64,000 nucleotides of DNA from Butyribacter intestini. Its GTDB lineage: Bacteria > Bacillota > Clostridia > Lachnospirales > Lachnospiraceae. A program made the translations under genes and the position numbers. The stretch's first letter is position 1; each line of letters starts with the position of its first letter. The notes under the pieces were generated by a model that saw nothing but the letters and a program-made list of their open reading frames with translations, made no database searches and was not told where the DNA came from. Shown one piece after another: positions 6,053 through 44,349 of the stretch. The DNA lies in the NCBI GenBank assembly GCA_001414325.1, contig LLKB01000005.1:877285-941284 (forward strand), in the 5' to 3' direction.

Positions 6053-6061
6053 CAAAATAAC

Positions 6062-6120: not shown

Positions 6121-6160
6121 TAATTATCCCATATTAAAAATGTTCTTTTCTTAATACATT

Positions 6161-9879: not shown

Positions 9880-9902
9880 TCCGGTGACTCCTTTTTATTT
9901 TG

Positions 9903-9946
9903 ATGTACTCTCAAATTCTTCTGAACTAAAAATTCTGGTAGTTCAT
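9903..9946. repeat. 44-bp palindromic repeat, copy C
   Basis: Starts ATGTACTCTC and continues AAATTCTTCTGAAC. It aligns along its length with copies A and B but its right arm is degraded (GTAGTTCAT). It lies 23 nt upstream of the sulfotransferase start, nearly the same distance as copy A from the Rrf2 start. Confidence 0.6.
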
Positions 9947-10093
9947 TTTGTTATCATATAATAATGCTTTAACTGCATGATATGGCTTAAATTCCTATAT
10001 CACAAAAAAGTGCATTTTTCTACATATAAATCATGTACCTGTCAAGATTAAATATATGATAAAGATAATTCGTGTCACCGGGACGAAAATTTC

Positions 10094-10132
10094 GTGTCAG
10101 TTTTGTTTTATTTTTGTGTCAGTTTTGTTTTA
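10094..10132 (+). repeat. Two direct repeats of 17 bp at the end of the YjbR/MGMT gene
   Basis: GTGTCAGTTTTGTTTTA occurs at 10094-10110 and again at 10116-10132, with a partial third copy (CGTGTCA) at 10071-10077. The second copy reaches the stop codon of the adjacent gene. Role unknown; it may be slippage or a weak terminator region. Confidence 0.6.
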
Positions 10133-10756: not shown

Positions 10757-10806
10757 TGTTCGTTCTCCTCTCGTCCATATACCCCTCATCTTTCCACCTA
10801 TTTTCA

Positions 10807-11784
10807 CTACCCAAGCAGTCCTCTATCCATATACTCTGCTATCTGCTCAGCAAAATAAGTAAGATATATGCTTGAACCAGCTCTGTAGGTTGCTGCTGCC
10901 ATCTCACACACTATCTTTTCCTCGTCTATGCAGCCTGCTTTTGCAGCCGCTTTTACCATAGCATACTCTCCGCTCACACTGTATGTTGCCACAGGCACAT
11001 CCACTATATCAACAACTTCCCTCACTATGTCAAGATAACTCATTGCAGGTTTTACCATAATGATGTCCGCTCCTTCTTCAACATCCTGCAATGCTTCTTT
11101 TATGCCCTCTTTTCTGTTATGATAATCCATCTGATAAGATTTTCTGTCACCAAAAGACGGTGCTGAGCCTGCAGCATCCCTAAACGGTGAATAAAATGAT
11201 GATGCATATTTCACGGCATATGACATTATCGGTGTGTTGGTAAATCCATTCTCATCGAGTGCATTTCTGATAGCGAGCACTCTTCCATCCATCATATCTG
11301 ACGGTGCAACCATATCCGCACCGGCTTTTACATGAGAAACCGCTGTCTTTGCCAAAAGTTCAAGTGTGGAATCATTGTCTACATCATGACCGCAGAGTAG
11401 TCCGCAATGACCGTGTGAAGTATATTCGCACATACACACATCTGTTATAAAATACATATCTGAAAAATCTTTTTTTGCAGCTCTTAAAGCTCTCTGCACG
11501 ATTCCATCATCATCATAAGCACCACTTCCGACTTCGTCTTTTACATCAGGTATGCCAAACAGGATAACACTTTTAACACCTGCTTTTTTAAGACTTTCAA
11601 GTTTCTCGGACATTCTGTCTATACTATAACGGAACTGTCCCTCCATAGACGGGATTTCCTCTACTATATTCTCTCCTTCTCTTACAAACATAGGATAAAC
11701 AAGCGATGACTTATCCATTCTTGTTTCCCTCACCATCTTCCTTAATATCTCATTTTGTCTTAATCTTCTTGCTCTCTGTATCAT
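10807..11784 (-). CDS. hemB: Porphobilinogen synthase (delta-aminolevulinic acid dehydratase)
   Basis: Condenses two 5-aminolevulinate molecules to porphobilinogen. The 325 residues are the usual length. The zinc-type cysteine triad is Cys117, Cys119 and Cys127 in DVCMCEYTSHGHCG, and the two active-site lysines are Lys192 (SYAVKYASSFY) and Lys245 (MVKPAMSY). It follows hemA by about 135 nt on the same strand and belongs with hemA, hemL and the hemC fusion. Confidence 0.96.
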   Translation of the reverse strand: MIQRARRLRQNEILRKMVRETRMDKSSLVYPMFVREGENIVEEIPSMEGQFRYSIDRMSEKLESLKKAGVKSVILFGIPDVKDEVGSGAYDDDGIVQRALRAAKKDFSDMYFITDVCMCEYTSHGHCGLLCGHDVDNDSTLELLAKTAVSHVKAGADMVAPSDMMDGRVLAIRNALDENGFTNTPIMSYAVKYASSFYSPFRDAAGSAPSFGDRKSYQMDYHNRKEGIKEALQDVEEGADIIMVKPAMSYLDIVREVVDIVDVPVATYSVSGEYAMVKAAAKAGCIDEEKIVCEMAAATYRAGSSIYLTYFAEQIAEYMDRGLLG

Positions 11785-11919
11785 ATTTGCCCTCTTTTCT
11801 TTATATCTGTTTTTCTCACAAAATTTGTTATCAAAAATATAATGTTTAGTACAAAAATTATTTTTCCCTCTGCATCAATACATATTTTAATCATACAGCA
11901 ATAATATCTCGTCGATAAA

Positions 11920-13095
11920 TCAACAATACCACTGTATTTTTGCAATTATTTCCACAAAATCCTGAAATTCCTGTGCATTACTCTTTTCTTTTATATCAAA
12001 AATCATCTTATGAACCGCCGCATCCAGTGATTTTTTCTCAGCATTTTCTTTGATATATGCCATAAATCTATCTATTTTTTCACGGTTTGCCCTAAATATC
12101 TCATTTTTGAGATATTCCTGCTCATATTCTCTTATTATCTCTTTTGCATCGCACAAATAACTTTTCTTTAATTCATTGTTTTTTGCGGCAAGCCTATCCA
12201 TATCTTCCATTGAATATCTCGCCACACCCTGTATTTCCTCTATATCAGGCGATATGTCAAACGGAACTGCAAGGTCGATAAACACAACTTTATTTTTGTG
12301 CTCCTTTTCCTCAAAATGCTTTCTTGTGACAGTATAATGCGGACTTGATGTTGCACTTATTATAACATCCATCTTTTCCATATGTTCATATCTGTCTTTG
12401 TAATCTATTATATTGCATCTCGCATTTTTCTCTGGAATGTGGTTTCTTGCGGTTACATAAACATTTGCTCCCTCTATATCAAGTGCATCCAGCATAACTA
12501 TATTTCCGATTTTTCCGGACGCACCTATTATCATAATGTTTTTTCCGGATAATGTACCAAATTTCTCGCCCGCCTGCTTTAGTGCAAGACTTGCAGTCGA
12601 TACGGAAGTCTTTGACATAGGTGTGTCTGTCTTTACTTTCTTTGCCGCCGCCATCGCTGCCTGAAAAAGTGAGTGAAACGAATTTCCTATATATCCTTTT
12701 TTGTCACTTGCAAGATAAGCATTTTTTACCTGTCCCAAAATCTGGTCTTCACCAAGCACAACAGAGTCAAGACCTGCCGCCACCATAAAAAGATGATGAA
12801 CCGCCTTTTTTTCTTCGTATCTTAATATTACATCCTGAATTTCTGAATTTTCTGAAACTCCGGCTTCTTCTAAAAGTACCTGCTGCATAAAAAGCACCGC
12901 TGTCTCTGTTTTTTCCCTGACTTCGCAATAAAGTTCCGTTCTGTTGCAAGTTGCAAGAAGTACCGCTTCATTTATATAAGGCGAACTTATAAGCCTTTCC
13001 ATTATCCTCGCCTTTGCATCATCATCAAATGCAAACAGACCTCTTATCTTTGTATCTGCGGTCTTATGACTAACGCAAAGTAATTGTATGCTCAT
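11920..13095 (-). CDS. hemA: Glutamyl-tRNA reductase
   Basis: First step of C5-pathway tetrapyrrole synthesis: Glu-tRNA to glutamate-1-semialdehyde with NADPH. Cys50 in LLATCNRTELY is the catalytic nucleophile. A Rossmann motif IIGASGKIGN lies near 192, and the C-terminal helix and dimerisation region follow. The 391 residues are slightly shorter than the E. coli enzyme (418). The start overlaps the hemL stop by 4 nt, so the two genes are probably translationally coupled; their products channel the unstable semialdehyde. Confidence 0.95.
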   Translation of the reverse strand: MSIQLLCVSHKTADTKIRGLFAFDDDAKARIMERLISSPYINEAVLLATCNRTELYCEVREKTETAVLFMQQVLLEEAGVSENSEIQDVILRYEEKKAVHHLFMVAAGLDSVVLGEDQILGQVKNAYLASDKKGYIGNSFHSLFQAAMAAAKKVKTDTPMSKTSVSTASLALKQAGEKFGTLSGKNIMIIGASGKIGNIVMLDALDIEGANVYVTARNHIPEKNARCNIIDYKDRYEHMEKMDVIISATSSPHYTVTRKHFEEKEHKNKVVFIDLAVPFDISPDIEEIQGVARYSMEDMDRLAAKNNELKKSYLCDAKEIIREYEQEYLKNEIFRANREKIDRFMAYIKENAEKKSLDAAVHKMIFDIKEKSNAQEFQDFVEIIAKIQWYC

Positions 13096-14375
13096 AAACT
13101 GATAACCTCACAAGTCCTCTCGATATCCTCTTTTGTATGTGCGACTGATACAAACATTGCTTCAAACTGTGCAGGTGCAACATAAATCCCATTGTCGAGC
13201 ATTTTCCAGAAATATTCTGTATATGCGTTTGTATCAGATGTAAGTGCACTATCATAATCATCCACGACCTCACCTGTCTGGAACGCAGATAAAAGCGAAC
13301 CTATCTGATTTACATGGAGAGGAATGTTTTTCTCTTTTGCCATCTTTCTGTACGCATCTGCAAGTTTTTTTGCACTCTCATCTATCTGTTTATAGTATTC
13401 AGGATGTGCTTTTAAAATCTTAAGAGTTTCAATTCCTGCCGTTGTCGCAATAGGATTTCCTGACAATGTACCAGCCTGATAAACCGGTCCTGTCGGAGAA
13501 ACCCTGTCCATTATCTCTTTTTTTCCGCCATATGCAGCGATAGGCATACCACCGCCGACAATCTTACCGAGCGTAGTCATGTCCGGCTTAACACCAAAAT
13601 ACTCCTGTGCTCCGCCAAATTTAAGCCTGAATCCTGTTATAACCTCGTCAAATATAAGAACTGTTCCATATTTTAATGTAATATCACGAAGAAATTTTAA
13701 AAATCCCTCTTTCGGAGGAACAACCCCCATATTGGCGGCTACAGGCTCAACTATGATTGCGGCAACATTTTCACCATACTGCTCCATAAGTTCTCTTACG
13801 GAGTCCTCATTATTGTACTCTGCAACAAGAGTATTCTGCGTATAAGAAGCCGGAACTCCCGCACTATCAGGAACAGCAGTCGTAAGAGCTGCCGAACCAG
13901 CTTTCACAAGAAGCCCGTCAGAGTGACCGTGATAATTTCCCCTGAACTTTATTATCATATCTCTGCCCGTATAGCCTCTTGCAGTACGAATGGCACTCAT
14001 CGTAGCTTCTGTCCCCGAATTTACAAGCCTTACTTTCTCAATAGATGGCATTGCATCAGTTATAAGTTCAGCAAGCTCCAATTCTTTTTTAGTAGGAGCA
14101 CCAAAAGTAAGACCGTCAACACAGGCTTTTTTTACCGCTTCGATAACCTGTGGATGTGCATGACCTAAAATTCCTGGTCCCCACGAACATACATAATCAA
14201 TAAATTCATTGCCATCCACATCGTAAATGTGGTCGGCATTAGCACTTTTTATAAAAAGAGGTGAACCTCCGACACTGCCAAATGCTCTCACCGGACTATT
14301 AACACCACCGGGAATCTTCTCAAGTGACTTCTCAAACAAAACCTTAGAATTTTCCATATTCGACCTTATATTCAT
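13092..14375 (-). CDS. hemL: Glutamate-1-semialdehyde 2,1-aminomutase
   Basis: A PLP enzyme that converts glutamate-1-semialdehyde to 5-aminolevulinate. The 427 residues start MNIRSNMENSKVLFEKS; the N-terminal GGVNSPVRAF and the PLP lysine Lys271 (TTLGKIVGGGMP) are typical, and the NSGTEATMSAIRTARG block is present. The ATG at 14373-14375 was chosen because GGAGGTAC lies eight bases upstream. It overlaps hemA by 4 nt. A gap of about 200 nt separates it from the hemC fusion. Confidence 0.96.
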   Translation of the reverse strand: MNIRSNMENSKVLFEKSLEKIPGGVNSPVRAFGSVGGSPLFIKSANADHIYDVDGNEFIDYVCSWGPGILGHAHPQVIEAVKKACVDGLTFGAPTKKELELAELITDAMPSIEKVRLVNSGTEATMSAIRTARGYTGRDMIIKFRGNYHGHSDGLLVKAGSAALTTAVPDSAGVPASYTQNTLVAEYNNEDSVRELMEQYGENVAAIIVEPVAANMGVVPPKEGFLKFLRDITLKYGTVLIFDEVITGFRLKFGGAQEYFGVKPDMTTLGKIVGGGMPIAAYGGKKEIMDRVSPTGPVYQAGTLSGNPIATTAGIETLKILKAHPEYYKQIDESAKKLADAYRKMAKEKNIPLHVNQIGSLLSAFQTGEVVDDYDSALTSDTNAYTEYFWKMLDNGIYVAPAQFEAMFVSVAHTKEDIERTCEVISL

Positions 14376-14543
14376 CTTAAAAAGTACCTCCATATCTATA
14401 TTTACAAATATTCATCTTAATAATACCTATATAAATTCTATATATCTATATAGTATAATTAATTATTCTTCTAAATTTATATTATGAAACTATCTTTATC
14501 TTAAATTATAATATCTATTTTAAAACTATCTTTACCTGTAATA

Positions 14544-14566
14544 GATTGTACGGTAACTGTACAATC
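14544..14566. promoter_or_regulatory. Inverted repeat between the hemC fusion and hemL
   Basis: GATTGTAC-N7-GTACAATC is a perfect 8-bp inverted repeat, 8 nt after the stop of the hemC fusion and about 170 nt before hemL. Without a U-tract it is not a standard terminator; it could be an operator or an RNA processing hairpin. Confidence 0.4.
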
Positions 14567-14574
14567 ATCACAGC

Positions 14575-17142
14575 CTACCCTTGTTTTTCAACATCCCTTA
14601 CAATAACATCCACAATACCTCTTGCATCAAACTCCTCTGCAACAAGTTTCACCCTCAGTCCTGCCTCCTCGCAGTCCCTCTTTGTCACCGGACCTATCGC
14701 AACGATATTGTCATTCTCACAACCTGCCATATCCCTTAATGCTCTTGCACCTGAGCCGCTTGTCACGACAATATAATCAACATCAGGACATATCCTTTTT
14801 ACTTCGTCAGCACGCCTTTCGTCCTGAATTGTCTCATAAATGCAGATTTTATCAAACTCAACCGACATTTCACTAAATTTATCCTCGATAAAGTTTTTAC
14901 CCTGCTTTCCTCTTACAATAAGTATTTTATCCTTATCTGTCAATTCTTTTGACAATTCCTCCGCCAATATTTTTGATGTAAATTTTGATGGTATAAAATC
15001 CGCATATAAACCATATTTTTCGAGTGCTTTCTTTGTCGATGTACCCACTACGGCAAATCTGGCATTTGCAAGTTTTCGTATATCTACTCTTAAATTTCTC
15101 AGCCTGTCAAAGAAAATATTTACACCATTTGCACTTGTAAAGATAAACCATGAATATTTTTCAAGATTATTAAATATATCATCACAATCACTGTAATCAG
15201 GTATTGTCTCAACAAGGCTTATCGCAATCGTCTCACCGCCGTACTGCTCAAATTCTTTTTCAAGACTGTCCGCCATATTCCTTGAACCTGTTACAAGTAT
15301 CCGCTTTCCGCTAAGCACTTTTTTTTCATTTTTGCTCTGCCACTCACATATCTGTTTTCCGACTCCGACAACATCACCGACCACTATTATTGCCGGTGCT
15401 TCTATATTATTTTTTCGGACCTCATCCTTAATAGTAAGCAGATTTCCATATACAGTCCTCTGTTTTGCCGTCATTCCTTTTGATATAACAGCCACGGGGG
15501 TTTCTCCGTTCTTTCCGTTTTTGATAAGTTTTTCACAGATATTTCCAAGACTTCTAAGTCCCATCAGAAATACAAGAGTTCCCTCCTCTTTTGCAATAAC
15601 AGAAAAATCAAGAGCTTCTGATGGCTTTGCAGGATGTTCATGCCCCGTAATAATATGAACCGATGAAGCAGCCCCCCGATGCGTTACCGGAATACCTGCA
15701 CTTGCCGGGACACTGTACGAAGAAGAAATTCCTGACACGATTTCATAGCTTATCCCCGCTTTTTTAAGTGCTAAAGCCTCCTCGCCTCCTCTACCAAAAA
15801 TAAAGGGGTCACCCCCCTTAAGACGCACAACATATTTTCCGCTCAAAGCAAGATTTACGAGAAGTTCGTTTATCTCAGGCTGTTTTTTATAAATCGTATC
15901 AGCCCTTTTTCCAACATAGATAAGCTCTGCATCCATCTTCGCTTCATTTAATATTGACGGTGAGATAAGTGCATCATATACGATAACATCCGCCTTTTTA
16001 ATACATCTTAGAGCCTCGATACTAAGATAATCCCTCTTTCCCGGACCCGCACCGACAAGAGAAACCATTCCTTTATTACCAGTAAATGACTTTTTTAGTT
16101 CATCTTTTTTCGTATTTATATCAATATCTTTTTTATCAGTATTTCCATTATCTGATTTTAAATTTACACAACATTTTTTATTTCCATTCTCATTTTTAAT
16201 ATCAGTATTCTTAGCATCAGATTTCAAAACATCAACAAGCCTTTTTGCAAGACTAATGGCAAATTTTAAATCCGTATTATCTGCATTGACAGGCTCAGAG
16301 ATTTTTTCCCACTGTTCATCCGTTTTTTCATTTATAACAGCATACTTTGGAGTTTTTCCATCATAAGCATACATTCCCCTGAAATAAAAACCGTGCTCAT
16401 CCACCGTACAATGAGCACCGCATGGTGCATTACAGCTTCCGTCAAGACATTTTAAAAATTCACGCTCAGCTTCAAGACATATCCTTGCCTTTCTGTCATC
16501 AAGTACCGCCATTACATCTTTTAAATCACCATTTCTGCACTCGATTGCAAGAATCCCCTGCCCTGCCGCAGATATAAATTTCTCCTCGTCAGGGTATATA
16601 TAATCAAGCTCTGTATCATTGTCAAGACCAAGCCTTTTTAACCCTGCCGCCGCAAGAATAATAGCATCATACTCACCTGATTTTAATTTATCTATCCTTG
16701 TTCCGACATTGCCCCTCAGTGATTTTATCGTAACATCCGGGGAAATCTGCTTTATCTGGATTTCTCTCCTCAAGCTGCTTGTTCCGATGATACTGCCTGC
16801 ACCGATTTTTTTTGTTTCTTTCCTTTTTAGAATAACATCCCTGTTGTCATCCCTTAAAAGAACCGCCCCAAGACAAAGCCCATCCGCAAGTTCCATAGGC
16901 ACATCCTTTGCACTATGAACGGCAATATCTATGGTTTTGTCGAGCAGCTTTTCCTCAATCTCTTTTGTAAAAACACCTTTTCCGCCAATCTCACCGAGCG
17001 GCTTATCAAGAACCTTATCACCATGCGTAACCACATGGACAATCTCAATTTTTTCATTCGGAAAATATTTTAAGATCTGAGTTTTGACAAGCTCTGTCTG
17101 AATTAAAGCAAGTTTACTTTTCCTTGTTCCTATCCTAATCAT
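14575..17142 (-). CDS. HemC-CobA-HemD trifunctional fusion
   Basis: An 855-residue fusion of three consecutive enzymes. Residues 1-307 are porphobilinogen deaminase (IGTRKSKLAL; dipyrromethane cysteine Cys236 in DGSCNAPCG). A linker rich in Asn, Lys and Asp (308-357) follows. Residues 358-605 are uroporphyrinogen-III C-methyltransferase (VGAGPGKRDYLSIEAL, GGDPFIFGRGGEE). Residues 611-855 are uroporphyrinogen-III synthase (GKRILVTGSRNM). One protein would take porphobilinogen to precorrin-2. The start MIRIGTRKSKLA at 17142 matches other HemC proteins. CobA-HemD fusions are common in Firmicutes; the triple form is less so. The frame is intact throughout. Confidence 0.93.
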   Translation of the reverse strand: MIRIGTRKSKLALIQTELVKTQILKYFPNEKIEIVHVVTHGDKVLDKPLGEIGGKGVFTKEIEEKLLDKTIDIAVHSAKDVPMELADGLCLGAVLLRDDNRDVILKRKETKKIGAGSIIGTSSLRREIQIKQISPDVTIKSLRGNVGTRIDKLKSGEYDAIILAAAGLKRLGLDNDTELDYIYPDEEKFISAAGQGILAIECRNGDLKDVMAVLDDRKARICLEAEREFLKCLDGSCNAPCGAHCTVDEHGFYFRGMYAYDGKTPKYAVINEKTDEQWEKISEPVNADNTDLKFAISLAKRLVDVLKSDAKNTDIKNENGNKKCCVNLKSDNGNTDKKDIDINTKKDELKKSFTGNKGMVSLVGAGPGKRDYLSIEALRCIKKADVIVYDALISPSILNEAKMDAELIYVGKRADTIYKKQPEINELLVNLALSGKYVVRLKGGDPFIFGRGGEEALALKKAGISYEIVSGISSSYSVPASAGIPVTHRGAASSVHIITGHEHPAKPSEALDFSVIAKEEGTLVFLMGLRSLGNICEKLIKNGKNGETPVAVISKGMTAKQRTVYGNLLTIKDEVRKNNIEAPAIIVVGDVVGVGKQICEWQSKNEKKVLSGKRILVTGSRNMADSLEKEFEQYGGETIAISLVETIPDYSDCDDIFNNLEKYSWFIFTSANGVNIFFDRLRNLRVDIRKLANARFAVVGTSTKKALEKYGLYADFIPSKFTSKILAEELSKELTDKDKILIVRGKQGKNFIEDKFSEMSVEFDKICIYETIQDERRADEVKRICPDVDYIVVTSGSGARALRDMAGCENDNIVAIGPVTKRDCEEAGLRVKLVAEEFDARGIVDVIVRDVEKQG

Positions 17143-17258
17143 ACTGACCTCGTTTCTATGTATATCGGATTTGTTTGATGCAATGTGCAAAACAGATAAC
17201 AATAATGCAATCCACAGCGGCATCATTCGTTTTTAATTATAATACATCCTATATAACT

Positions 17259-17418
17259 CAGTGTACTGTATCATTGATATTTCGTCAAATAACTTGTATA
17301 ACTTTCCATCTGCTGCGTTGTCATCAATCGCCGTAGCCCGCTACGGCTCATTCTTCCGTCTTGCAGGCTGAAAATTTATCCTGCGTTATTTAACTGAAAA
17401 TCATTAATACAATACACC
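17259..17418. repeat. MITE-like repeat family 2, copy B (160 bp)
   Basis: Aligns over its full length with 6161-6323: CAGTGTACTGTATCA at the left, hairpin CCGTAGCCCGCTACGG in the centre, and GTTATTTAACTGAAAATCA at the right. It lies in the 342-bp gap upstream of the hemC fusion. Between it and the gene, a TATAAT-like box (about 17236-17241, minus strand) may be the hem promoter, without a clear -35. Confidence 0.8.
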
Positions 17419-17456
17419 CGCAGTCAAGTATGCTTTAAAATGAACATGACTAATAA

Positions 17457-17475
17457 TAACAGTTCAGCCTTCCAT
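17457..17475 (+). repeat. Family-1 repeat end fragment
   Basis: TAACAGTTCAGCCTTCCATT is a family-1 terminus followed by unrelated sequence. It lies just downstream of the anti-sigma-like gene. Confidence 0.65.
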
Positions 17476-17484
17476 TTGTTACGA

Positions 17485-18189
17485 CTAATACATACTCTCA
17501 GCCATCTTAAACAACTCGCTTTCATCCATATCATCGTCTGTGCCAATGGTATTTATATATTTATCATCATTCCATTGCAATGTTCTCTCCCCCTGTTCTT
17601 CATATATATAACCCACATAACCGGCAATACTTACTTTTCTGCCATCTATATCCCTTCCTGAATATCTGGCGTCTTTTAAAATTTTATTTTTTGAATAAAA
17701 TAAATACTTCTTATTTTCAACCCATTTTATATAACTAAAGTCTTCATCAGTATTTTGTTCACTTATCTTATAAACTTCAGGCACATAATCAGGAAAATCT
17801 TTTTTTCTTTCCTTAGCTTTATCTGCCCCATTTTCTTTAGTTTTCTTATTTTGATCGTAAGTTATACCAACATTCCCACCTGAATTCTTATCTATCTTTG
17901 TCGTTTTCCAAGCATCAAATCCAAATATATTAGCATCCATTTTTGTGGCAGCGAATAAAACCGAACTTATAAAAACAACTATAGCAGAAGCTTTAGTAAG
18001 TAATCTTAAAATTTTATGTTTCCTGTATTCTGTGGTTTTTTCATCATTTCTCCCACTAATAATCTTATCCTTTGTCCGTTCCTTAAAGTCACTGGGTAAC
18101 TGAATTTTTTCCAAGTCAACATCATCATATTTTTTCTCCACTTCTCTTTCATACACCTTAAGATAATCTCTTATTTCCTTATCGTTCAT
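17485..18189 (-). CDS. Probable membrane anti-sigma factor partner of the ECF sigma factor
   Basis: A 234-residue protein: a charged cytoplasmic part (1-62), one membrane segment (about 64-83, SAIVVFISSVLFAATKM) and an outer domain of about 150 residues with IKWVENKKYLFYS and GYVGYIYEEQGERTLQWNDD, reminiscent of DUF4367-type anti-sigma C-termini. It has a good GGGAGG ribosome binding site and lies 23 nt downstream of the sigma gene. Function is inferred from topology and position. No zinc-binding ZAS motif (HxxxCxxC) is seen. Confidence 0.65.
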   Translation of the reverse strand: MNDKEIRDYLKVYEREVEKKYDDVDLEKIQLPSDFKERTKDKIISGRNDEKTTEYRKHKILRLLTKASAIVVFISSVLFAATKMDANIFGFDAWKTTKIDKNSGGNVGITYDQNKKTKENGADKAKERKKDFPDYVPEVYKISEQNTDEDFSYIKWVENKKYLFYSKNKILKDARYSGRDIDGRKVSIAGYVGYIYEEQGERTLQWNDDKYINTIGTDDDMDESELFKMAESMY

Positions 18190-28555: not shown

Positions 28556-28752
28556 AAAAAAAAGCATACCCAAAGTGCCGTGTCCCGAATTTTGAGTCCT
28601 AGCAAGTGCTAGGTGGGCAACCGCACATATGATTCTGCCTTCCGCTGCTATAGGTGGCGGCTTGGCATCCTCATATAGATATAGGAATCCCAATTCAAAA
28701 GTGTAGGTTCAAAATATCAGGAGTATCGAACACCCCAGGCATGTATGCTTTT
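28556..28752 (-). ncRNA. ssrS: 6S RNA
   Basis: Minus strand, about 190 nt. The ends pair (AAAAGCATAC near 28752 with GTATGCTTTTTTTT ending near 28556), which also forms the terminator. Inside are features I recall for clostridial 6S RNA: CCTGGGGTGTTCGATA, TTTTGAACCTACACTTTTGA, a long hairpin (CCGCCACCTATAGCAGCGG), GCGGTTGCCCACCTAGCAC and GGGACACGGCACTTTGGG. 6S RNA mimics an open promoter and binds the housekeeping RNA polymerase holoenzyme in stationary phase. No open reading frame is present. Confidence 0.87.
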
Positions 28753-34354: not shown

Positions 34355-34532
34355 TAACAGTTCAGCCTTGCATTTCTTACATTCTACATTCATAAACCTG
34401 CCAGTCGCTGCTTTGCAGCTTATGTTTATTTCATTTCCGAAATGAAAGGCTATTCTACCATAAAAAGGTACTTAACAATACAATGAACAAGCTCATTGTA
34501 TTGCCAATTACCTTTTTATGCCTGAACTGTTA
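34355..34532 (-). repeat. MITE-like repeat family 1, full copy (178 bp), reverse orientation
   Basis: Inverse orientation to the copy at 32078. It has the 13-bp end at the left, a GCCTGAACTGTTA right end, and the same internal hairpins; a few bases near the CTGGC block are missing. It lies between the infC promoter and the coiled-coil membrane gene, close to the stop codon at 34539. Confidence 0.88.
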
Positions 34533-34538
34533 CAGCAG

Positions 34539-35804
34539 TTACACATTACTGTACTCTTTTATTATTCCGAGCAGCTCTCCCTTTATCTCCGGATGTGCAT
34601 TTATCATTTCATCAAGCTGGCTTATTATTCCCTCTTTGAGTTTCTCATTATTTTCTATGCGTTCCCTGAGCATCTGTCTCCTTTGATTAAGTTCATGGCG
34701 TATCTCTACCATTTCCCTGCTGTCGACTATCGCCTCACATCTGCTTATCCATATATCAGCATCTTTAACCCCAAGTTCTTTTAACATGATAACGAGATTT
34801 TCATTGTTTGCATTGAGCATTTCCGTATTTTCACGGAATTTTTTCTCATACTCACGCATTTTGCAATATTCATTCCACTTTTCCTCGAAATCCTTTGCAT
34901 TTTTCACACCGAACTTATTGCAATTGTAGTCGAGCACATTGATGTTATTGATATATTTTATTTTCACCTTGTTTAAAAGCGTTATAGCCTTGTTTATCTT
35001 TCTTTCAACAAGTATTATGTCACGCCTGTTTTTTGATGACTCAAATACGAGCATCGCCGCTGAAACTCCGGCAAGTGCAACAACACCAAGATAAGGCAGT
35101 GTCATATCAGTTTTTGTGGCATAATATATCACTATAAGAAGAACTATAAGTGAGATTATAAGTACCGCAAGTACCTTTGTCATACCTTTAAGTGCATTTT
35201 GCTTTGCTATGATTTCCTTTCTCTGCGAATAAAGCGAGTCTTTTTCTTTTTTCAGATTTTTAATATCTCCCTCTATCGCATCCTGATATGCCTGTGCATT
35301 ATACATTTTCTTTATCTCATCGACAAGCTCATCTTCAAACGGCTCAAATTTACGCATCTGTGCATCGCTTATCGTAAGATTTCTGTTTTTGTATTTACTT
35401 CTCTCCTGCGTAAGTGTGAGAATACTTTTACATATATCTTTTATTTCACGATACTCATCTTCCCTTGCCATGTCGATACGCTGAATATCCGTCAGATATG
35501 ATGTTACTTTTTCATATTCTTTTTTTGCTTCAGCTATCTGTCTTTCATTTTCGGCTATGGCTTCACAGTTATTTCGCACAAACCTTATTGCATCTGTTTT
35601 TCCGGTTGTTACAGGCTTATCCTGCGTGAGCATTTCCTGTTCCATCTGTTTTCTGATACCGTCATCTTTTTTTTCATAAGTTTCATCTTTTTCACTATTT
35701 CCGGATATTTCGCCTTTTAAATTTTCTTCATCTGTCCCTTTTTCCACTACATCTTCTATATTATCATGGTCTTTTTTCTTTTTTCTCCTGCTAAAAAAAA
35801 ACAT
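34539..35804 (-). CDS. Coiled-coil membrane protein, unknown function
   Basis: 421 residues. A basic N-terminus (MFFFSRRKKKKDHD) and acidic segment (15-60) lead into long coiled-coil helices (70-205). Two membrane helices (about 209-228 and 236-254) form a short hairpin, and a second coiled coil runs from 257 to the end. Both coiled coils would lie on the same, probably cytoplasmic, side. No enzymatic motif. It is the last gene of the cluster with the DUF5717/DUF5716-like and TPR-like genes; the layout suggests a membrane anchor for that complex. Confidence 0.7.
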   Translation of the reverse strand: MFFFSRRKKKKDHDNIEDVVEKGTDEENLKGEISGNSEKDETYEKKDDGIRKQMEQEMLTQDKPVTTGKTDAIRFVRNNCEAIAENERQIAEAKKEYEKVTSYLTDIQRIDMAREDEYREIKDICKSILTLTQERSKYKNRNLTISDAQMRKFEPFEDELVDEIKKMYNAQAYQDAIEGDIKNLKKEKDSLYSQRKEIIAKQNALKGMTKVLAVLIISLIVLLIVIYYATKTDMTLPYLGVVALAGVSAAMLVFESSKNRRDIILVERKINKAITLLNKVKIKYINNINVLDYNCNKFGVKNAKDFEEKWNEYCKMREYEKKFRENTEMLNANNENLVIMLKELGVKDADIWISRCEAIVDSREMVEIRHELNQRRQMLRERIENNEKLKEGIISQLDEMINAHPEIKGELLGIIKEYSNV

Positions 35805-35879
35805 ATATATCTTTTGCCCTTTCTAACTAACTCCGAATATTACTATCCGGTCATTAACATACGATAGTTATAGCAGCTG

Positions 35880-36731
35880 CTATCTGCTGCCGTCCGCACC
35901 TATCTCATTTCTATATTCTTCTTTCCACTGTTTTATATAGCCATCTACCTTATGATAATATTCTTCAAGGTATCCCGCTTTCATTGTTTCTTTTAATTTC
36001 ATGATACGACGGACATTCTTTGAATTTCTCGTCTCATCATTTATTTCTGCAAATTGTTCCATTATTTTATTTAAAACCGAAACTTCCACATCCAGTTTTT
36101 TTACCGCCTTATCAAACAGCTTTTTGTCTCCGGTAAGTTTAAGCGTATAAAAGTAAGAATATAAAGACTCTGTACTCTTATTTTTTTCATATGCGTGTTC
36201 AAAACTATCAGATGCTTTTATAAATGCACCTAGTCCGCAAAAAGCAGTTCCCATATTGTGATATATTTTTCCATAATCCTCATCATTGGCACCGAGCATA
36301 TCATCTTTTTCCAAGATTGCCGCATACTCCTCAACAGCCTTTTCATAAAGACCAAATCTTGAATAATTATCTGCTTTTATCTTTGATTTCTGCCATTCTG
36401 AAAGATTTTCTATAGAATCCATCACACCGATAAGTTCATTTATCTGCTCCTCATCATAGTAATCACAACTACAGCAAATCGTCACAACAATGTCTTTTAA
36501 TTTTCTCTTGTCAAATCTCATGCTGTCTATCTTGTCGGCAACTACTGTCATTCCAAGTTCATTTCTAAGCCACATTGAAAAATCTTTGTCAAATATCTGC
36601 TCGCGTATTATATATATATTGTTGTAAATATAGTAGCAGACTTCCTCTATCGAATATACATTTGTATCAGTGAGCCTGAAATGATATGGTTTATCTGCTA
36701 TTTTTCCGCAACATTCTATTAATTTTCCCAT
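35880..36731 (-). CDS. TPR-like repeat protein, unknown function
   Basis: About 283 residues, soluble, mostly helical. Residues about 140-215 look like TPR helices (SRFGLYEKAVEEYAAILEKD, YHNMGTAFCGLGAFIKASDS). The N-terminal 100 residues have no known motif; CCSCDYY is a small cysteine cluster. The start is one of two adjacent ATGs behind GGAGG. It lies 14 nt after the Hsp70/actin-like gene, so co-translation and interaction are likely. Confidence 0.7.
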   Translation of the reverse strand: MGKLIECCGKIADKPYHFRLTDTNVYSIEEVCYYIYNNIYIIREQIFDKDFSMWLRNELGMTVVADKIDSMRFDKRKLKDIVVTICCSCDYYDEEQINELIGVMDSIENLSEWQKSKIKADNYSRFGLYEKAVEEYAAILEKDDMLGANDEDYGKIYHNMGTAFCGLGAFIKASDSFEHAYEKNKSTESLYSYFYTLKLTGDKKLFDKAVKKLDVEVSVLNKIMEQFAEINDETRNSKNVRRIMKLKETMKAGYLEEYYHKVDGYIKQWKEEYRNEIGADGSR

Positions 36732-36745
36732 CATTTTCCTCCAGC

Positions 36746-38023
36746 CTAATTCTTTGAATCTGCTCCATTTATTTTAATGTAACGCTCCCATATCCTGTTT
36801 GTCGAAGGATAAAATTCTCCAAATCCGTTGTCCTTTAATGTGACAATACAGGTATATTGGTCGGCAAATCTGATTCTTACAGTAAATCTGGTCGTCTTAT
36901 TATCCCTGACAGCAAAACCGCTGAGTGAAAGTATATGAGCTCTCGTTTCTCTTGTCAGTACATTTTTGTCGGTAATCTGAATTTCATCTTCATTATCAGG
37001 TATTATATCTATAGATTCATCTATATCGCTCCACAATGTTCCAGCCTTTGCAAGCACAACATCGTGCATCTTTGCATTGTGATATGTCCGGATAGATATA
37101 TCACTTGTGAGCATATCGTCATCGAGAAAAATAAATTCTTTTGTTTTTTCCCTGTCAGTGAGCATCCTTGCCGCATACGCTGCTCCTTTATTAAAAAGAT
37201 TCTGTCCTCTAAACACTCTCCTGCCATTGCACAGTTCTTTTAAAGCATCAGTTGCCCACCTCTGATCAAACCCTTTTCCTGTCACATAAATCGTTGTAAC
37301 CATTTTTTTATGCAGCATTGTATTTGCCGTATTCAAAAACATATATTTAACATCGCCTTTTTCCTGCAACACTGAATATGGCATAATGTCTGACAGGTCA
37401 TACACATCTGCACCGACAATATATGGTATTGTTCTCTTATCTACAGTAAGATTTGTGTATCTTAATCCCATCTCATCAAATTCAAACAATCCTACACTAT
37501 TCGCCCAAAGTTCCTTTGGCTGACTGACTGCATAATACATATAGCTCTGCTTATGTCCCAGAATAACAAGTCTGTCATTTCTTATTCCCAGTTCCGCAAG
37601 AATGTTTTTCAATAAATCTACGATAACATTTTCTCTCTCCGGAATAGTAATGACAAGTTTTAATATTGTTTCATTCGGAAAATGTTCATTTAACAGACTT
37701 AAAAGTTTCACCATGAATTTTTTGACAACATCTTTCGTCTTAAAAATGTAACTTCCCTCCTGGAACTTTTCACTTTTCTTTATCTTGCTTAACAGGTTGG
37801 ATATAAGCGTGTATCCGCCTAATTGCATATTTTCTTTTGTTTTCCACAGCCACTCATTTGTATTTGGATTTACAAGAAGTGCCGAAGGAATTTCATATAT
37901 ATATTTATCACCAACAGGTATGCCCACCGGAACAGGCTCATATATTTTTTTGTCGTAATATGAAATCTGTGCCATATCGTCACATAAATCAATACCCACT
38001 AAAAGACTTCTTCCTGCTTCCAT
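36746..38023 (-). CDS. DUF5716-like protein with an Hsp70/actin-like (ASKHA) pattern
   Basis: 425 residues, soluble. The N-terminus LLVGIDLCDDMAQISYYD resembles the phosphate-1 loop of ASKHA ATPases; the middle has LVITIPERE and RLVILGHKQSYMYYAVSQPK (as in the AxxAA segment before phosphate 2), and IYVTGKGFDQRWATDALKEL followed by NKGAAYAARML resembles the adenosine motif (GGxxxxP-like) of Hsp70. The C-terminal 100 residues are a separate beta-rich domain. The family name DUF5716 is from memory. ATP binding is inferred. It is the second gene of a four-gene cluster. Confidence 0.7.
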   Translation of the reverse strand: MEAGRSLLVGIDLCDDMAQISYYDKKIYEPVPVGIPVGDKYIYEIPSALLVNPNTNEWLWKTKENMQLGGYTLISNLLSKIKKSEKFQEGSYIFKTKDVVKKFMVKLLSLLNEHFPNETILKLVITIPERENVIVDLLKNILAELGIRNDRLVILGHKQSYMYYAVSQPKELWANSVGLFEFDEMGLRYTNLTVDKRTIPYIVGADVYDLSDIMPYSVLQEKGDVKYMFLNTANTMLHKKMVTTIYVTGKGFDQRWATDALKELCNGRRVFRGQNLFNKGAAYAARMLTDREKTKEFIFLDDDMLTSDISIRTYHNAKMHDVVLAKAGTLWSDIDESIDIIPDNEDEIQITDKNVLTRETRAHILSLSGFAVRDNKTTRFTVRIRFADQYTCIVTLKDNGFGEFYPSTNRIWERYIKINGADSKN

Positions 38024-38156
38024 CTAAACTTTCCCCTTTCGTCGCCATACGAAACAAATCGGATATTCGCAATTTGCTTCGATGCTTGCTAACATAAAAT
38101 CTGTGCAACACATAAATTTCATATGTTTTTATCAGACCATGAGTCCACATATAAAC
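38024..38156. other. Spacer between the DUF5717- and DUF5716-like genes
   Basis: 133 nt without a gene. GGATATTCGCAATTTGCTTC (about 38060-38079) resembles AGATATTCGCAATCCGCTCC in the leader at about 58673-58692; no promoter is clear. Confidence 0.35.
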
Positions 38157-41100
38157 TTATAACAGCTTAAACATTTTTTTGACATTTTCTCTCTCTGTCG
38201 CATAATCTGTCATCATCTCGATAAGAGTCTCATCATCATTCATCTCTTTTGCGATAAGCATCATATTTATATTGTGAAATCTGCTGCCCGCTCTCTCATT
38301 GTCCATTGTCTCATCAAAGTGAACACTACTTCTTAAGGTTTCAACTTCTCCTTCAGGACGCATTTCAGTTATATAATATTTAAGTATCTCATCCTGAAAC
38401 ATTACAAAATCTTTTACCCTTATACCCTCAAATATATCAGGCATCTCTTCCGTTATATACTCACCCTCATCCTGTTTTACCGATGTGATAAGATAATGTA
38501 TCTTTACTTCGTACTTAGGATCTGCTATGTATTCTACATAATGTTCATCAAGAATATGTATCGGTAACGGAAACTTTCCATAGTAATCTTTAAAAAACGG
38601 AAAAATTTTTCCCTGCGAATATAATTTGTTTAAATTGTAATCGGCAAAATTTATCTTGTCCGTTGTAAGCTCTTTACATTCGCTGAAATATTTTAAAACA
38701 GCTATCAGACATGGCAGATTTTCATGTTTTCTCACTTCCTGATAGAAACAATCAAAAAGCTTTTCAGGCAGTTCAAAGTTTTTAACAAGGTATCTGTAAG
38801 CAAGCATTTTCATAAATGCCGATGTGAGTTTTCTATTGGAGTCATGCTCATAAAAGCTGTAAAATACGCTGTAACTTTCCGGGATTATCTCCTCAGTAAA
38901 CACCATCTGTGCGATTATTCTTTCTTCAAGATTTTTTGCATCGATATTAAACCCTACGGCAGCTTTCCATATCCCCACCATACCCGCAAGACTTCCATTG
39001 TAGAACATACATATATACCGAAGTACATTCTCATCAAATTTGCCAGACTTAAATATATGCCATGCGAGCTTTATCATGAATGAATCTTCATTTTTCTGCT
39101 GTGCAAAGAAATCTGATGATATTTGTAAAAGGCGTTTTGCGTCTATGTCTTCGTATCCGAAACTCATTATACCGTCCATTGCCTTTTTGTAACAATGCCT
39201 TACCGCACAATATTCTATATACTGCTGTCTGTCTCCCGGATTTACATCCTCCCAGTCAATACTTTCAAGTGCTTCATCGAGAAGGTCTCCCTCAAAATTA
39301 TCAAAATAATATCTGAGCAATGCTGAAAATATTTTTCTTTTCTGAAATTCACTTACTATATCAAGTTCATAAACTCTCTTTAATACATCTACTGTATCAG
39401 CGTTCACCTGTCTGAAATGTTCAATCTTGTCATACATATAAAGTAACAAAAGTACATTCGTCTTATTTTTTTCATAACATTTTTCTGCTATATGGTCAAG
39501 ATGAAGCAGTTTATTTAGAGTGTAATCTATCGACATGGCATATCTGTTGTCAAGTGCATCTGCCAAAAAAATGCGTGCATTTTCCGTAAATATCTGCACT
39601 ACCGCTCTGCCATTTACAAGAGGTACGAACTGCTCGGTTTTTAATTCTCTGTGACGCACATACACTCCGGCTATATCAGGGTTTGCACATCTTACTTCAT
39701 GGGCAAACATTATATTGGGAAGTTTATCCGCTATCTCATCGGTAATATTTTCTTCATTTAAAAACTGCTCATAGCAAATTGCAAGATTTTCACTTATCCT
39801 GCCTGCCTCTATCTGCTTAAAAGCAAAATTTTCAATAATCTCCTGATATGATTCATATGTCCCCGGATCGTTCTCACGATTTTTTATTATATATGAGTAA
39901 AGAAGTGCTTTTTTGGAAACTGATAAATGATTATCATACATAAAGTATAACAATACCTGTTTCGTAAGCTTAATGCCCTCCTCAACATTAATCGAATCCA
40001 TATAATATTCAAAAAGTTCTGTAATCTTTAAGTTGTGTTCTATTGCCAGAGCATACCATTTATTTGCTTCTTCATTTATGAGCTGTCCTCTCATTAACAT
40101 ACGGCATATTGCTGCGAGTACCTCATCCTCACTAAAGTTCTCGTATGTTTTTATCATGTCACGCAATACGACTTTGTTAAATTCTTTTGAACGGCTTGCA
40201 AGATAAATATATCTGAGTGCCAGTTCTTTTGATAAAAATTTATTTTCGCATCCCCAGTGAAGACATCTTATGATACCAGGTGTTAGCTCCCTTAATGTTC
40301 CGGCAGAAGAATTGAGTGCACTGCACATCTCAAAATAGATAACAGGACTGCTGCATCCTCCCTCTACACAAATAAGCACATCTTCAAGTTTTCTTCTGTC
40401 TGATTCATATACAGGGTCAAGATAAAGTAAAAACCATAACACCTGCCAACTGTTATCTTCTATCTCATAACATTCCCTTACATTTTTGATACATTCATCC
40501 TTTATTTCATTTTCCTCTGCCCACAGTGCCTTGAGATACTGATATGCACAATAAACAATCTTATCATTTTCATATATTTTATTTTCAATCTCATTAAAAT
40601 AAGCAAGACCACCTTTTACAACTCCATTGTCTCCGGCAAGGATGCCAAGATGTATGTCATAAAGTTTTTTTTCATTGCCATGCAGATGTATGATTTCTTT
40701 TTGTACCTGCGATATATACTCTTTTTTATCTATCTTTGACATAGAAAAATCGAGATATAATTTTACAAGAGAATAATATGCCCTCTGTCTTGCAAGACTT
40801 TTTACCACTATCTCATGGTCTGTCCCGTGCTTCTGAGCCATAACCTCTATTGTAAGGCTCTGTCTTACGGTGCATATCCTGATTCGTCCATAATTAATGC
40901 CGGCAGTCATCTTATCAATATCCACGAGAAATTTAAGTTTGTAAGAATCTCCGAAAAATTTATCTGTCCATATTATTTTATGTTCAGGCTGCAAAAATTT
41001 TGCATCTGACTCTATATGTATCTCGCAAAAACCCCAGTTGTCCTTTGTGAGCGTTACTTCCTCAACAAATGACTCTATACAGTCATCATAAATAAAATTT

Positions 41101-41693
41101 GATTTATCTATCGAAAACCTGATAGGCAGTTTTTTGCGAACCGCAATAAGAAATTCTTCTAATGCCACACCCTTGCCTGTTCCTGCAAGCAGTCCTCTGT
41201 ATAATGCAATATTATCAGGGTCTTTATATAAAAATATCTGCTCAAAGTTTTTATTTTTAAACAGAGCTGCTGCCTCTGACTCATCTTCTCTTGCAAGATT
41301 TGCAAAATGAAACATATCCTTTATCTTTCCTATAGATGCATTGCACGCCGGAACACCAATCAATACATTAAATGGAATCCTTATACATCCATGATCTGAT
41401 ATAATGTAAAAATCACCTTTTATAACTTCTCCCGGAACACATTTTTCACCTGTGAAAGTATATTTTATCTCTTCCTCTTTTCCCTGAAAAACATCTTCTT
41501 CCAAAGTCATGTAATGACAATCCGTAACAACCATGCCTCTGACTTCTTTTGCATCTTCGACCCAAATTTTAAAACTTCCACTGATATTCTCACCTGCCTG
41601 CGTTTCAAGCTGTAACATCTGCCTGTCACACTGAATCTTTGACTGAGTATATTCAAATTTTCCTTTTGCATATTGATTTATCTTTTTGTTCAT
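38157..41693 (-). CDS. Very large DUF5717-like protein, unknown function
   Basis: 1178 residues, no membrane helices. Residues 1-300 look like two or three beta-sandwich domains (GSFKIWVEDAKEVRGMVV; INYGRIRICTVRQSLTIEV). From about 310 to 1050 there are repeated helical pairs of TPR/HEAT style, and the last 130 residues are mixed (YEVKIHYLITSVKQDEGEY). I recall such proteins as DUF5717 in Lachnospiraceae, next to DUF5716. The start MNKKINQYAKG at 41693 lies five bases after GGAGG. It may be a scaffold for the Hsp70/actin-like neighbour. Confidence 0.75.
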   Translation of the reverse strand: MNKKINQYAKGKFEYTQSKIQCDRQMLQLETQAGENISGSFKIWVEDAKEVRGMVVTDCHYMTLEEDVFQGKEEEIKYTFTGEKCVPGEVIKGDFYIISDHGCIRIPFNVLIGVPACNASIGKIKDMFHFANLAREDESEAAALFKNKNFEQIFLYKDPDNIALYRGLLAGTGKGVALEEFLIAVRKKLPIRFSIDKSNFIYDDCIESFVEEVTLTKDNWGFCEIHIESDAKFLQPEHKIIWTDKFFGDSYKLKFLVDIDKMTAGINYGRIRICTVRQSLTIEVMAQKHGTDHEIVVKSLARQRAYYSLVKLYLDFSMSKIDKKEYISQVQKEIIHLHGNEKKLYDIHLGILAGDNGVVKGGLAYFNEIENKIYENDKIVYCAYQYLKALWAEENEIKDECIKNVRECYEIEDNSWQVLWFLLYLDPVYESDRRKLEDVLICVEGGCSSPVIYFEMCSALNSSAGTLRELTPGIIRCLHWGCENKFLSKELALRYIYLASRSKEFNKVVLRDMIKTYENFSEDEVLAAICRMLMRGQLINEEANKWYALAIEHNLKITELFEYYMDSINVEEGIKLTKQVLLYFMYDNHLSVSKKALLYSYIIKNRENDPGTYESYQEIIENFAFKQIEAGRISENLAICYEQFLNEENITDEIADKLPNIMFAHEVRCANPDIAGVYVRHRELKTEQFVPLVNGRAVVQIFTENARIFLADALDNRYAMSIDYTLNKLLHLDHIAEKCYEKNKTNVLLLLYMYDKIEHFRQVNADTVDVLKRVYELDIVSEFQKRKIFSALLRYYFDNFEGDLLDEALESIDWEDVNPGDRQQYIEYCAVRHCYKKAMDGIMSFGYEDIDAKRLLQISSDFFAQQKNEDSFMIKLAWHIFKSGKFDENVLRYICMFYNGSLAGMVGIWKAAVGFNIDAKNLEERIIAQMVFTEEIIPESYSVFYSFYEHDSNRKLTSAFMKMLAYRYLVKNFELPEKLFDCFYQEVRKHENLPCLIAVLKYFSECKELTTDKINFADYNLNKLYSQGKIFPFFKDYYGKFPLPIHILDEHYVEYIADPKYEVKIHYLITSVKQDEGEYITEEMPDIFEGIRVKDFVMFQDEILKYYITEMRPEGEVETLRSSVHFDETMDNERAGSRFHNINMMLIAKEMNDDETLIEMMTDYATERENVKKMFKLL

Positions 41694-41824
41694 TTTAACC
41701 TCCATGCTGTCTCAACCCGTTACCGTCACCCGTACATTTTGGAACGCCAGGCACTAATGTTTATATTATATCACTTATCAACTCTATATGTAAACATTTA
41801 ACAAGACGGAATTATTTTTGCCGG

Positions 41825-42006
41825 TAACAGTTCAGCCATAAAAAGATAAGTGGCAATACAATGAGCTTGTTCATTGTATTGTTAATTATCTTTTTATGGT
41901 AGAATAGCCTTTCATTTCTGAAATGAAATAAACATAAGCTGCATTGCAGCGACTGACAGCTTGCTGGCAGGTTTATGAATGTAAGAAATGAAAGGCTGAA
42001 CTGTTA
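41825..42006 (+). repeat. MITE-like repeat family 1, full copy (182 bp)
   Basis: TAACAGTTCAGCC and GGCTGAACTGTTA ends are perfect. It is separated by 9 bp from a second end fragment (42016-42028) in the same place, as if a second element had been inserted and lost. Confidence 0.9.
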
Positions 42007-43101: not shown

Positions 43102-44223
43102 TTATGAAAGTTTATCAAGAAGTATCTTTACAAGTTTATCATTATCTTCAGGATTCATAAAACAAAATCTTATATATTTGTTGTCAAGGAAAGGAAAAGT
43201 CGAGCAATCCCTTATCATAAGTCCCTGTCTTATCGCCGTGTCAAACAATTCCTCTGATGTAATACCATCTTTCAATATTTTTATAAGGATAAAGTTTGCG
43301 TGCGGCTTGTAAAACTTTAAGCCGTGACATTTTTCAAGTATGCCGCATATTCTTTTTCTCTCCGATGATATAAGATTCCATGTCTCATTTATATAATCAG
43401 TATCTTTAAACATTATCTCTCCGGCTATTGCTGCAAGTGAATTTATAGTCCATGGATTTTTTCTGCTGTCAATTTCCTTTAGGAGTTCATGATTTCCACA
43501 TACCGCATATCCAAGCCTTAATCCCGGTGCTGCAAAGAACTTTGATATTCCACGCAGGATAATGATATTATTGTAATATTCCGTAAGTGGTATAGATGTT
43601 ATCTTTGATGTATCCTCTGAAAACTCAACATATGTTTCATCCACCATAACAAATATACCTTTTTCTTTACAGGCATCAAGTATTCGCCGCATTGAACTTC
43701 TGTCTATTTGAGAAGATGTAGGGTTATTTGGATTGCATATCACAAGCAGGTCTATATCACTTGTAAGTGCATTTTCAAGTCCCTCTATATCCAATTTAAA
43801 ATCATCTTTTTCCCTCAGTCTGAAATAATGTGAACGACCTCCGCCAAGTGCAACCTCATGTTCATACTCTGAATATGTCGGTCCTACAATAAGTGCCTTT
43901 GACGGCTTCTTTATCTGAATAACAAGCGAGATAAGTTCCGTAGAACCATTTCCCACAAGTACGCTTGTGTAGTCTGTCCCGGCGTACTTTGCTATACACT
44001 TTCTAAGAGATGTGTACTCTCTGTCAGGATATGATGTGATGGCATCTATATGAGATGCAAGTTCTTTTTTTAATTTATATGAAATCCCCAGCGGATTTAC
44101 ATTTGCCGAGAAACTTGTTATATCCTCTTTTTTTATGCCATATATCTTTTCTATTTTTTCAAGGTCACTTCCGTGAAAATGTTCTTTATGCTCTATCTTA
44201 TTACTATCTGTCTCTGCACTCAT
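43102..44223 (-). CDS. PLP-dependent aminotransferase, CobD/HisC-like
   Basis: 373 residues of aspartate-aminotransferase fold type I. SFSANVNPLG, VGNGSTELI, VICNPNNPTSS, VMVDETYVEFS and the PLP lysine in GISKFFAAPGLRLGY are seen. The N-terminal HFHGSDLEKIEKIYGIKKED resembles threonine-phosphate decarboxylase (CobD), which begins HGGD, more than histidinol-phosphate aminotransferase. CobD would fit the CobA activity in this window, but no other cobalamin gene is adjacent. The start at 44223 has GGAGGG. Confidence 0.75.
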   Translation of the reverse strand: MSAETDSNKIEHKEHFHGSDLEKIEKIYGIKKEDITSFSANVNPLGISYKLKKELASHIDAITSYPDREYTSLRKCIAKYAGTDYTSVLVGNGSTELISLVIQIKKPSKALIVGPTYSEYEHEVALGGGRSHYFRLREKDDFKLDIEGLENALTSDIDLLVICNPNNPTSSQIDRSSMRRILDACKEKGIFVMVDETYVEFSEDTSKITSIPLTEYYNNIIILRGISKFFAAPGLRLGYAVCGNHELLKEIDSRKNPWTINSLAAIAGEIMFKDTDYINETWNLISSERKRICGILEKCHGLKFYKPHANFILIKILKDGITSEELFDTAIRQGLMIRDCSTFPFLDNKYIRFCFMNPEDNDKLVKILLDKLS

Positions 44224-44349
44224 TTTAACCCTCCTGCTTTTCTGCCATTGCACTCATTTTAATGCAATAATTAACTTTTATACAATAACGATAATCACAT
44301 TATTGTTCATCCGTTATCTAATTAAGTATAGCACCTTAGCTATTGTATG

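Follow-up and report, generated by a model that had tools for sequence, protein, structure and literature searches.

A lidless, degenerate Hsp70 relative in a conserved operon of Lachnospiraceae and a larger multi-Hsp70 sister operon

Lachnospiraceae rank among the most abundant bacteria of the human gut. In Butyribacter intestini, a member of this family, a stretch of 64,000 nucleotides (nt) of contig LLKB01000005.1 (positions 877,285 to 941,284 of the forward strand; assembly GCA_001414325.1), called here the window, carries on its minus strand an operon encoding a DUF5717 protein, a DUF5716 protein, a tetratricopeptide repeat (TPR) protein and a membrane protein. The DUF5716 protein has the fold of an Hsp70 without its helical lid and has lost most of the catalytic motifs. 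In a tree of Hsp70s it nests within a paralogue, B, of a larger operon found in other families of the order. We favor, with moderate confidence, a reading in which this pseudo-Hsp70 derived from B is the center of the operon and serves as a static client-holding or scaffolding subunit, together with a TPR partner, a DUF5717 scaffold and an optional membrane tether.

A sequence-only reading of the same DNA had pointed to four tandem genes, three of which lie 11-75 nt apart. All four open reading frames (ORFs) are indeed present, separated by gaps of 133, 11 and 75 nt in the order DUF5717, DUF5716, TPR and membrane gene. The features, in window coordinates, are as follows.

38157-41693, minus strand: DUF5717 protein, 1178 residues, PapD/ASH-like beta-sandwiches and alpha-solenoid, putative scaffold (Pfam, AlphaFold2, VIA-align)
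40830-41636, minus strand: DUF5717 residues 20-288, two N-terminal beta-sandwiches (AlphaFold2, VIA-align)
36746-38023, minus strand: DUF5716 protein, 425 residues, lidless pseudo-Hsp70 (Pfam, motif alignment, fold comparison)
37139-38011, minus strand: DUF5716 residues 5-295, Hsp70 nucleotide-binding domain with degenerate catalytic motifs (alignment and fold)
36770-37126, minus strand: DUF5716 residues 300-418, domain resembling the beta part of the Hsp70 substrate-binding domain, SBD-beta (fold)
35880-36734, minus strand: TPR protein, 284 residues, fused with DUF5716 in four genera (Pfam, profiles)
34539-35804, minus strand: membrane protein, 421 residues, in about half of the genera (profile searches, hydrophobic segments)
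35043-35174, minus strand: two hydrophobic segments of the membrane protein, residues 211-254 (crude hydrophobicity measure)
41765-41794, minus strand: promoter-like TTTACA-18-TATAAT, 5' of the operon (consensus match only)

Hsp70 fold and degeneration of DUF5716

The DUF5716 protein of the window matches DUF5716_C (E = 2.7e-101) and scores 338.9 bits with PF18980, for a cut-off of 34.7. Its ASKHA nucleotide-binding domain is followed by SBD-beta. The fold matches listed, below which actins could rank, are Hsp70, Hsp110 and Ssz1 entries, apart from central-pair chains whose titles name no protein. A remote sequence relation to Hsp70 was also detected. The ASKHA motifs quoted in the sequence-only reading are present, and its guess at the fold can now be narrowed to Hsp70. 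DUF5716 thus resembles the bacterial Hsp70 DnaK (PF00012) in fold and remotely in sequence, but differs from it in its degenerate catalytic motifs, in drawing no PF00012 match in the scan of its own genome and in the missing SBD-alpha lid: the last strand spans residues 411-417 and four helical residues follow to the end at 425. The scan of that genome gave one DnaK, in two pieces, one MreB-like match of 343 residues and no other.

The GTT motif, K71, E175 and the GGGT motif are the catalytic or phosphate-binding residues of Hsp70. In an alignment of 67 DUF5716 proteins with the DnaK of B. intestini (four fused proteins and that of locus L116 were dropped), the TT of GTT and the GGGT of phosphate-2 are gone, the window protein reading GIDLCDD and EFDEMG, and the K71 column holds a lysine in 13 rows. 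The adenosine-motif glycine (66/67) and the GA of connect-2 (67/67) are kept. Since most catalytic residues are lost, the earlier label of putative ATPase is doubtful; judged from these alignments, ATP hydrolysis by DUF5716 is unlikely and nucleotide binding possible.

Conservation of the operon and its partner proteins

PF18980 (DUF5716) was found in 117 of 120 Lachnospiraceae genomes, with a single match each (98/101 among the good genomes), and PF18983 (DUF5717) in 116. Genomes G029, G091 and G098 gave no match to either family, and G020, 67% complete, lacked a match to DUF5717 alone. A second search recovered a piece of DUF5717 at a contig edge in G098, so that by these searches both families are missing in G029 and G091 only. 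In the phylum sample PF18980 was matched in 4 of 299 genomes, all Lachnospiraceae and including B. intestini itself. A class sample of 245 genomes gave 12 DUF5717 hits, three of them outside the family, weak and local (E = 2.5e-5 to 5.9e-4); one of these three loci, L178, has no such operon by profiles. Among named relatives the closest is Eubacterium sp. MSJ-13, with 80% identity in DUF5716, and 10 more named contigs with the operon bear the titles Lachnospiraceae, Lachnoclostridium, Clostridium or Eubacteriales. We take the operon to be near-universal and single-copy in one family, the Lachnospiraceae. A phage or plasmid origin was discarded, PHROGs giving E values of 0.015 or worse and plasmid records no DUF5716 match (phage records lay outside this search).

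Synteny was examined in 72 loci: the window, 11 named contigs and 60 regions around DUF5716, hand-picked from genomes with a DUF5716 match and mostly lying on large contigs. DUF5717 and DUF5716 were recovered by phmmer in all 72 and TPR in 71; in the remaining locus, L097, the ORF that follows groups with the TPR family by BLAST. The order DUF5717-DUF5716-TPR on one strand holds in 72/72 loci, with median gaps of 15 nt between DUF5717 and DUF5716 (72 pairs), 4 nt between DUF5716 and TPR (67) and 14 nt between TPR and the membrane gene (40). The earlier expectation that the four genes stay together therefore stands for these three, but not for the membrane gene, which is present in 40/72 loci (in one of them behind an intervening ORF). 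Over the 120 family genomes this gene gave 53 strong matches, plus 2 weak matches that lie on different contigs from DUF5716, and by parsimony on a DUF5717 tree (frames above 1000 residues only, 69 of the 72 loci and 2 outgroups) its presence flips 10 times. Because of these 53 matches in 120 genomes, DUF5717-DUF5716-TPR is regarded as the constant unit.

In four genera DUF5716 and TPR form a single ORF of 684-723 residues in which both profiles are matched nearly in full, the DUF5716 match of locus L096 being interrupted by an internal gap. Parsimony on the same tree counts two fusion events. Such fusions are an indirect sign of joint action. TPR in the window protein itself is weak (Pfam E = 1.7e-05, below the curated cut-off), and the description as a TPR protein gains from its relatives, TPR_2 matching 37 of the 67 aligned (four fused proteins and L097 dropped).

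The giant protein was correctly recognized as DUF5717-like. Its Pfam matches are DUF5717_N (2.1e-279) and DUF5717 (2.4e-94), PF18984 and PF18983 being above cut-off over residues 1-868 and 870-1175. An AlphaFold2 model (pLDDT 88.0, pTM 0.63) contains the helical repeats expected earlier, as an alpha-solenoid, and suggests that the protein combines this solenoid with PapD/ASH-like beta-sandwiches in a putative scaffold. Its best sequence relative in the PDB has an E value of just 0.026, and that of the membrane protein just 0.081. The membrane hairpin anticipated in the latter, which the sequence-only reading also labeled a coiled-coil protein, corresponds to hydrophobic segments at residues 211-229 and 236-254. 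By the same crude measure, two such segments occur in 39/40 aligned membrane proteins, the window copy included, and at least one in 4/67 DUF5716, 8/70 DUF5717 (L115 and L128 dropped) and 0/67 TPR proteins.

A larger sister operon and the ancestry of DUF5716

The DUF5716 profile found matches in 125 of the 196 genomes searched in the order. Outside Lachnospiraceae a genome often gave several, weaker ones, and where a weak match stood alone (about 1e-6 to 1e-10) it is probably DnaK. Twenty regions were fetched for their strong or multiple hits, 18 of them outside Lachnospiraceae. Ten of these 18 show exactly the order DUF5717, Hsp70-A, GrpE-like, B, Hsp70-C, Hsp70-VWA (with a von Willebrand factor A domain) and TPR. 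In L153, L159 and L168 this order is interrupted by extra called ORFs only, and in L157, L164, L165 and L169 the operon is partial or dispersed. Locus L154 illustrates the composition by Pfam: Hsp70-A (5.1e-76), GrpE at the end of a 644-residue protein (3e-13), B matching both DUF5716_C (1.5e-26) and HSP70 (1.4e-17), Hsp70-C (7.4e-63), Hsp70 (4.5e-96) with VWA (1.9e-10), TPR_2 (5e-26) and DUF5717_N (1.6e-84). Searched by phmmer with the L154 copy, itself counted, the GrpE-like gene is present in 18/18 sister loci; of four copies scanned with Pfam, those of L154, L155 and L163 matched GrpE and that of L152 did not. The membrane gene lies 3' of TPR in L155, L158 and L163.

Catalytic motifs are kept in Hsp70-A (K71 in 14/16) and Hsp70-VWA (K71 in 14/14), and in Hsp70-C with the exception of K71 (0/17). 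B already lacks K71 (0/17) and GGGT. Despite having no K71, Hsp70-C is strikingly conserved, with a mean column identity of 74% over 17 sequences, for 43% in its neighbor B.

A tree of 88 sequences was computed under LG+G4 and rooted on DnaK, with 23 of the 67 DUF5716 rows, Hsp70-VWA trimmed to 520 residues and the B protein of L164 left out of the B group. DUF5716 forms a clade (support 100) nested in B, the B protein of L158 being its sister (100). B with DUF5716 is supported at 100, C is their sister group (100) and nodes within B range from 84 to 100. We take DUF5716 to derive from paralogue B of a multi-Hsp70/GrpE-like operon, long branches calling for caution. As the 17 loci that provided B sequences also carry Hsp70-C and the GrpE-like gene, loss in the Lachnospiraceae line is the simplest reading of the direction of change. 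Consistent with such a loss, the 72 family loci yielded no GrpE-like protein, and in them the Hsp70-C profile met only DUF5716 and a single weak match (8.4e-04, an ORF of 331 residues in L092); the DnaK of B. intestini scores 2.5e-59 with this profile.

Two observations stand beside this history. L158 (G420:C25) is an intermediate locus in which the GrpE-like ORF is short (279 residues) and Hsp70-VWA and TPR are each split into two ORFs, by erosion or sequencing error. In the phylum sample the B profile at 1e-10 matched 89/299 genomes, mostly in DnaK-sized frames; a short match, L175 (G134), was dropped as an operon relative, being a 498-residue Hsp70 of a chemosensory operon (ORFs 5481-18133) amid CheA, CheB, CheR, CheW, methyl-accepting chemotaxis protein, HEAT-repeat and ParA-like genes. 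L176 (G253) resembles it by ORF lengths only.

Proposed role, alternatives and genomic surroundings

The nearest likeness, and the published precedent, is Ssz1 in the ribosome-associated complex (RAC) of yeast, an Hsp70 in which the lid is absent, SBD-beta is kept and ATP is bound without hydrolysis, so that no classical exchange factor is needed (PMC7083937). DUF5716 is likewise lidless and retains SBD-beta. Ssz1 is eukaryotic, binds ATP, has the J protein Zuo1 as partner and acts at the ribosome, whereas DUF5716 is bacterial and has TPR, DUF5717 and membrane proteins as operon partners; the two are assumed to have arisen independently. By analogy with Ssz1 in RAC, DUF5716 would no longer cycle and would hold peptides or act as scaffold. 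A static model of this kind predicts that the GrpE-like gene is lost where the Hsp70 is degenerate, as is the case here. The TPR protein, being fused to DUF5716 in some genera, would be its direct partner, the large DUF5717 protein would be a scaffold bringing clients, and the membrane protein an optional anchor tethering the assembly in about half of the genera. The ordinary DnaK of the cell would take care of active folding, and the likeliest clients seem to us to be nascent or exported/membrane proteins. A physical complex, which gene fusions and synteny back, handover to DnaK and the nature of the client we infer. A bolder version, put forward tentatively and itself doubtful, is a bacterial counterpart of RAC: a lidless Hsp70 without ATPase activity would sit on a PapD/ASH-solenoid scaffold, in many cases tethered to the membrane, and would hold clients and pass them to DnaK. 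It would have been born from a multi-Hsp70 operon that lost its intact Hsp70s and exchange factor, leaving the pseudo-enzyme as a near-universal component of Lachnospiraceae.

Several results weigh against the static reading and its history. The phosphate-1 aspartate is kept in 59/67 DUF5716 rows and the phosphate-2 column holds D in 32 and E in 17 (49/67), so that nucleotide binding may persist. The alignment is uncertain within the degenerate motifs: residue 159 (E in 47/67, Q in 15/67) lies two columns off the Hsp70 catalytic glutamate, E175. RAC works on the ribosome with a J protein, and the operon proteins that were scanned show no J domain. Hsp70-C at E 1e-75 was found in 0/120 family genomes, in a run without positive control. 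Finally, the short operon occurs outside Lachnospiraceae in G576, a genome classified in a different family (completeness 86%, contamination 5%, roughly 300 contigs) within the order. Its DUF5716 match is full-strength (2.3e-136), compared with 5e-8 to about 1e-6 (best 9.3e-10) in the other genomes of its family listed with a match; its 15 kb contig (L179, G576:C40) carries a short-type DUF5717-DUF5716-TPR, with a DUF5716 43% identical to a Lachnospiraceae member. We suspect contamination, or possibly transfer.

The kept acidic residues, with the adenosine-motif glycine and connect-2 GA, would suit a nucleotide-driven switch, with or without slow hydrolysis, in a specialized Hsp70 machine borrowing GrpE and DnaJ from the dnaK locus; dnaK, at another place in the genome, does adjoin DnaJ-like and other ORFs. 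Loss of K71, GTT and GGGT, the missing lid and the lack of a GrpE-like gene in the family loci make this rather improbable. Catalytic loss, the large PapD/ASH-plus-solenoid scaffold and the membrane protein of about half of the genera also fit an organizer at the membrane or envelope that is purely structural, plays no part as a chaperone and uses the old Hsp70 only as a protein-protein interaction module. We consider this unlikely, as SBD-beta is kept, the sister operon is rich in Hsp70 and GrpE, and the membrane gene is missing in the other half. As to the earlier notion of a chaperone- or cytoskeleton-like machine, the sister operon shows chaperone ancestry; no result obtained here points to a cytoskeleton.

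A last alternative, very improbable, would make the operon a remnant or variant of conflict systems serving defense or stress thresholding. Kaur et al. 2020 (PMC7159879) describe neighborhoods in which GAP1-N2 GTPases are surrounded by Hsp70, GrpE, a second Hsp70 without peptide-binding domain and a protein of fibronectin type that is fused to DnaJ or TPR. The theme is alike in both, with Hsp70, GrpE, another Hsp70 and a TPR-bearing beta-sandwich protein. GAP1-N2 (PF20013) is, however, absent in 11/12 genomes tested, G000 included, and in the twelfth, G474, it lies on contig C89 with the operon on C6. Having no GAP1-N2 and different recurrent neighbors, the operon was not filed with these systems, and the GAP1-N2 candidate was dropped. 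PADLOC gave no match for the four window proteins and weak ones only for the sister Hsp70s and TPR (best 8.7e-11), and a defense system was dropped on this outcome; near-universal, single-copy presence beside housekeeping neighbors also speaks against the conflict reading.

The Pfam names DUF5716 and DUF5717 carry no function; what the present analysis adds is an origin from Hsp70 and a larger sister operon, giving both families a structural and evolutionary identity. No literature on their function was found by family name, the one paper containing the name DUF5716 being unrelated by its title, and none linking Lachnospiraceae with Hsp70, GrpE and VWA. In a review of bacterial Hsp70 machines (PMC8215388) the terms Lachnospir-, Clostridi-, TPR and von Willebrand do not occur. 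Present as a single copy in nearly all genera sampled, and given no function by these searches, the operon is a clear target. The families form an evolutionary series, others of the order keeping several intact-looking Hsp70s together with a GrpE-like protein and a pseudo-Hsp70, Lachnospiraceae the pseudo-Hsp70 only, and the role of a non-hydrolyzing Hsp70 becomes testable in bacteria.

In the window, the ORF finder places the DUF5717 start at 41705; a GGAGG just 5' of the ATG at 41693 favors the latter. Heat-shock control through CIRCE was dropped, no element being found 5' of DUF5717 in the 72 loci (best site 6 mismatches, equal to shuffled sequence; the dnaK locus, intended as positive control, itself showed no better than a 4-mismatch site). 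No regulatory RNA reached the Rfam gathering score at the operon; elsewhere in the window Rfam identified group II intron domains near the edge (79-371, minus strand) and a 6S RNA (28563-28744, minus strand). The operon is flanked 5' by a divergent amino-acid kinase gene (proB-like) and 3' by infC (Pfam). Recurrent neighbors in the family are an aminotransferase, ValS, an MgsA-type ATPase, DUF4364 and an amino-acid-type ABC transporter. The aminotransferase, of class I/II, is near DUF5717 in 30/72 loci (43102-44253 in the window), often just 5' on the opposite strand, and likewise adjoins DUF5717 in sister locus L154. A palindromic intergenic repeat, resembling a miniature inverted-repeat transposable element, has five core copies in the window, for none expected in shuffles. 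Two inverted copies (34355-34533 and 41824-42006), 93% identical over 139 nt and ending in TAACAGTTCAGCC / GGCTGAACTGTTA, flank the four-gene unit, and further cores lie at 5830, 32108 and 50914.
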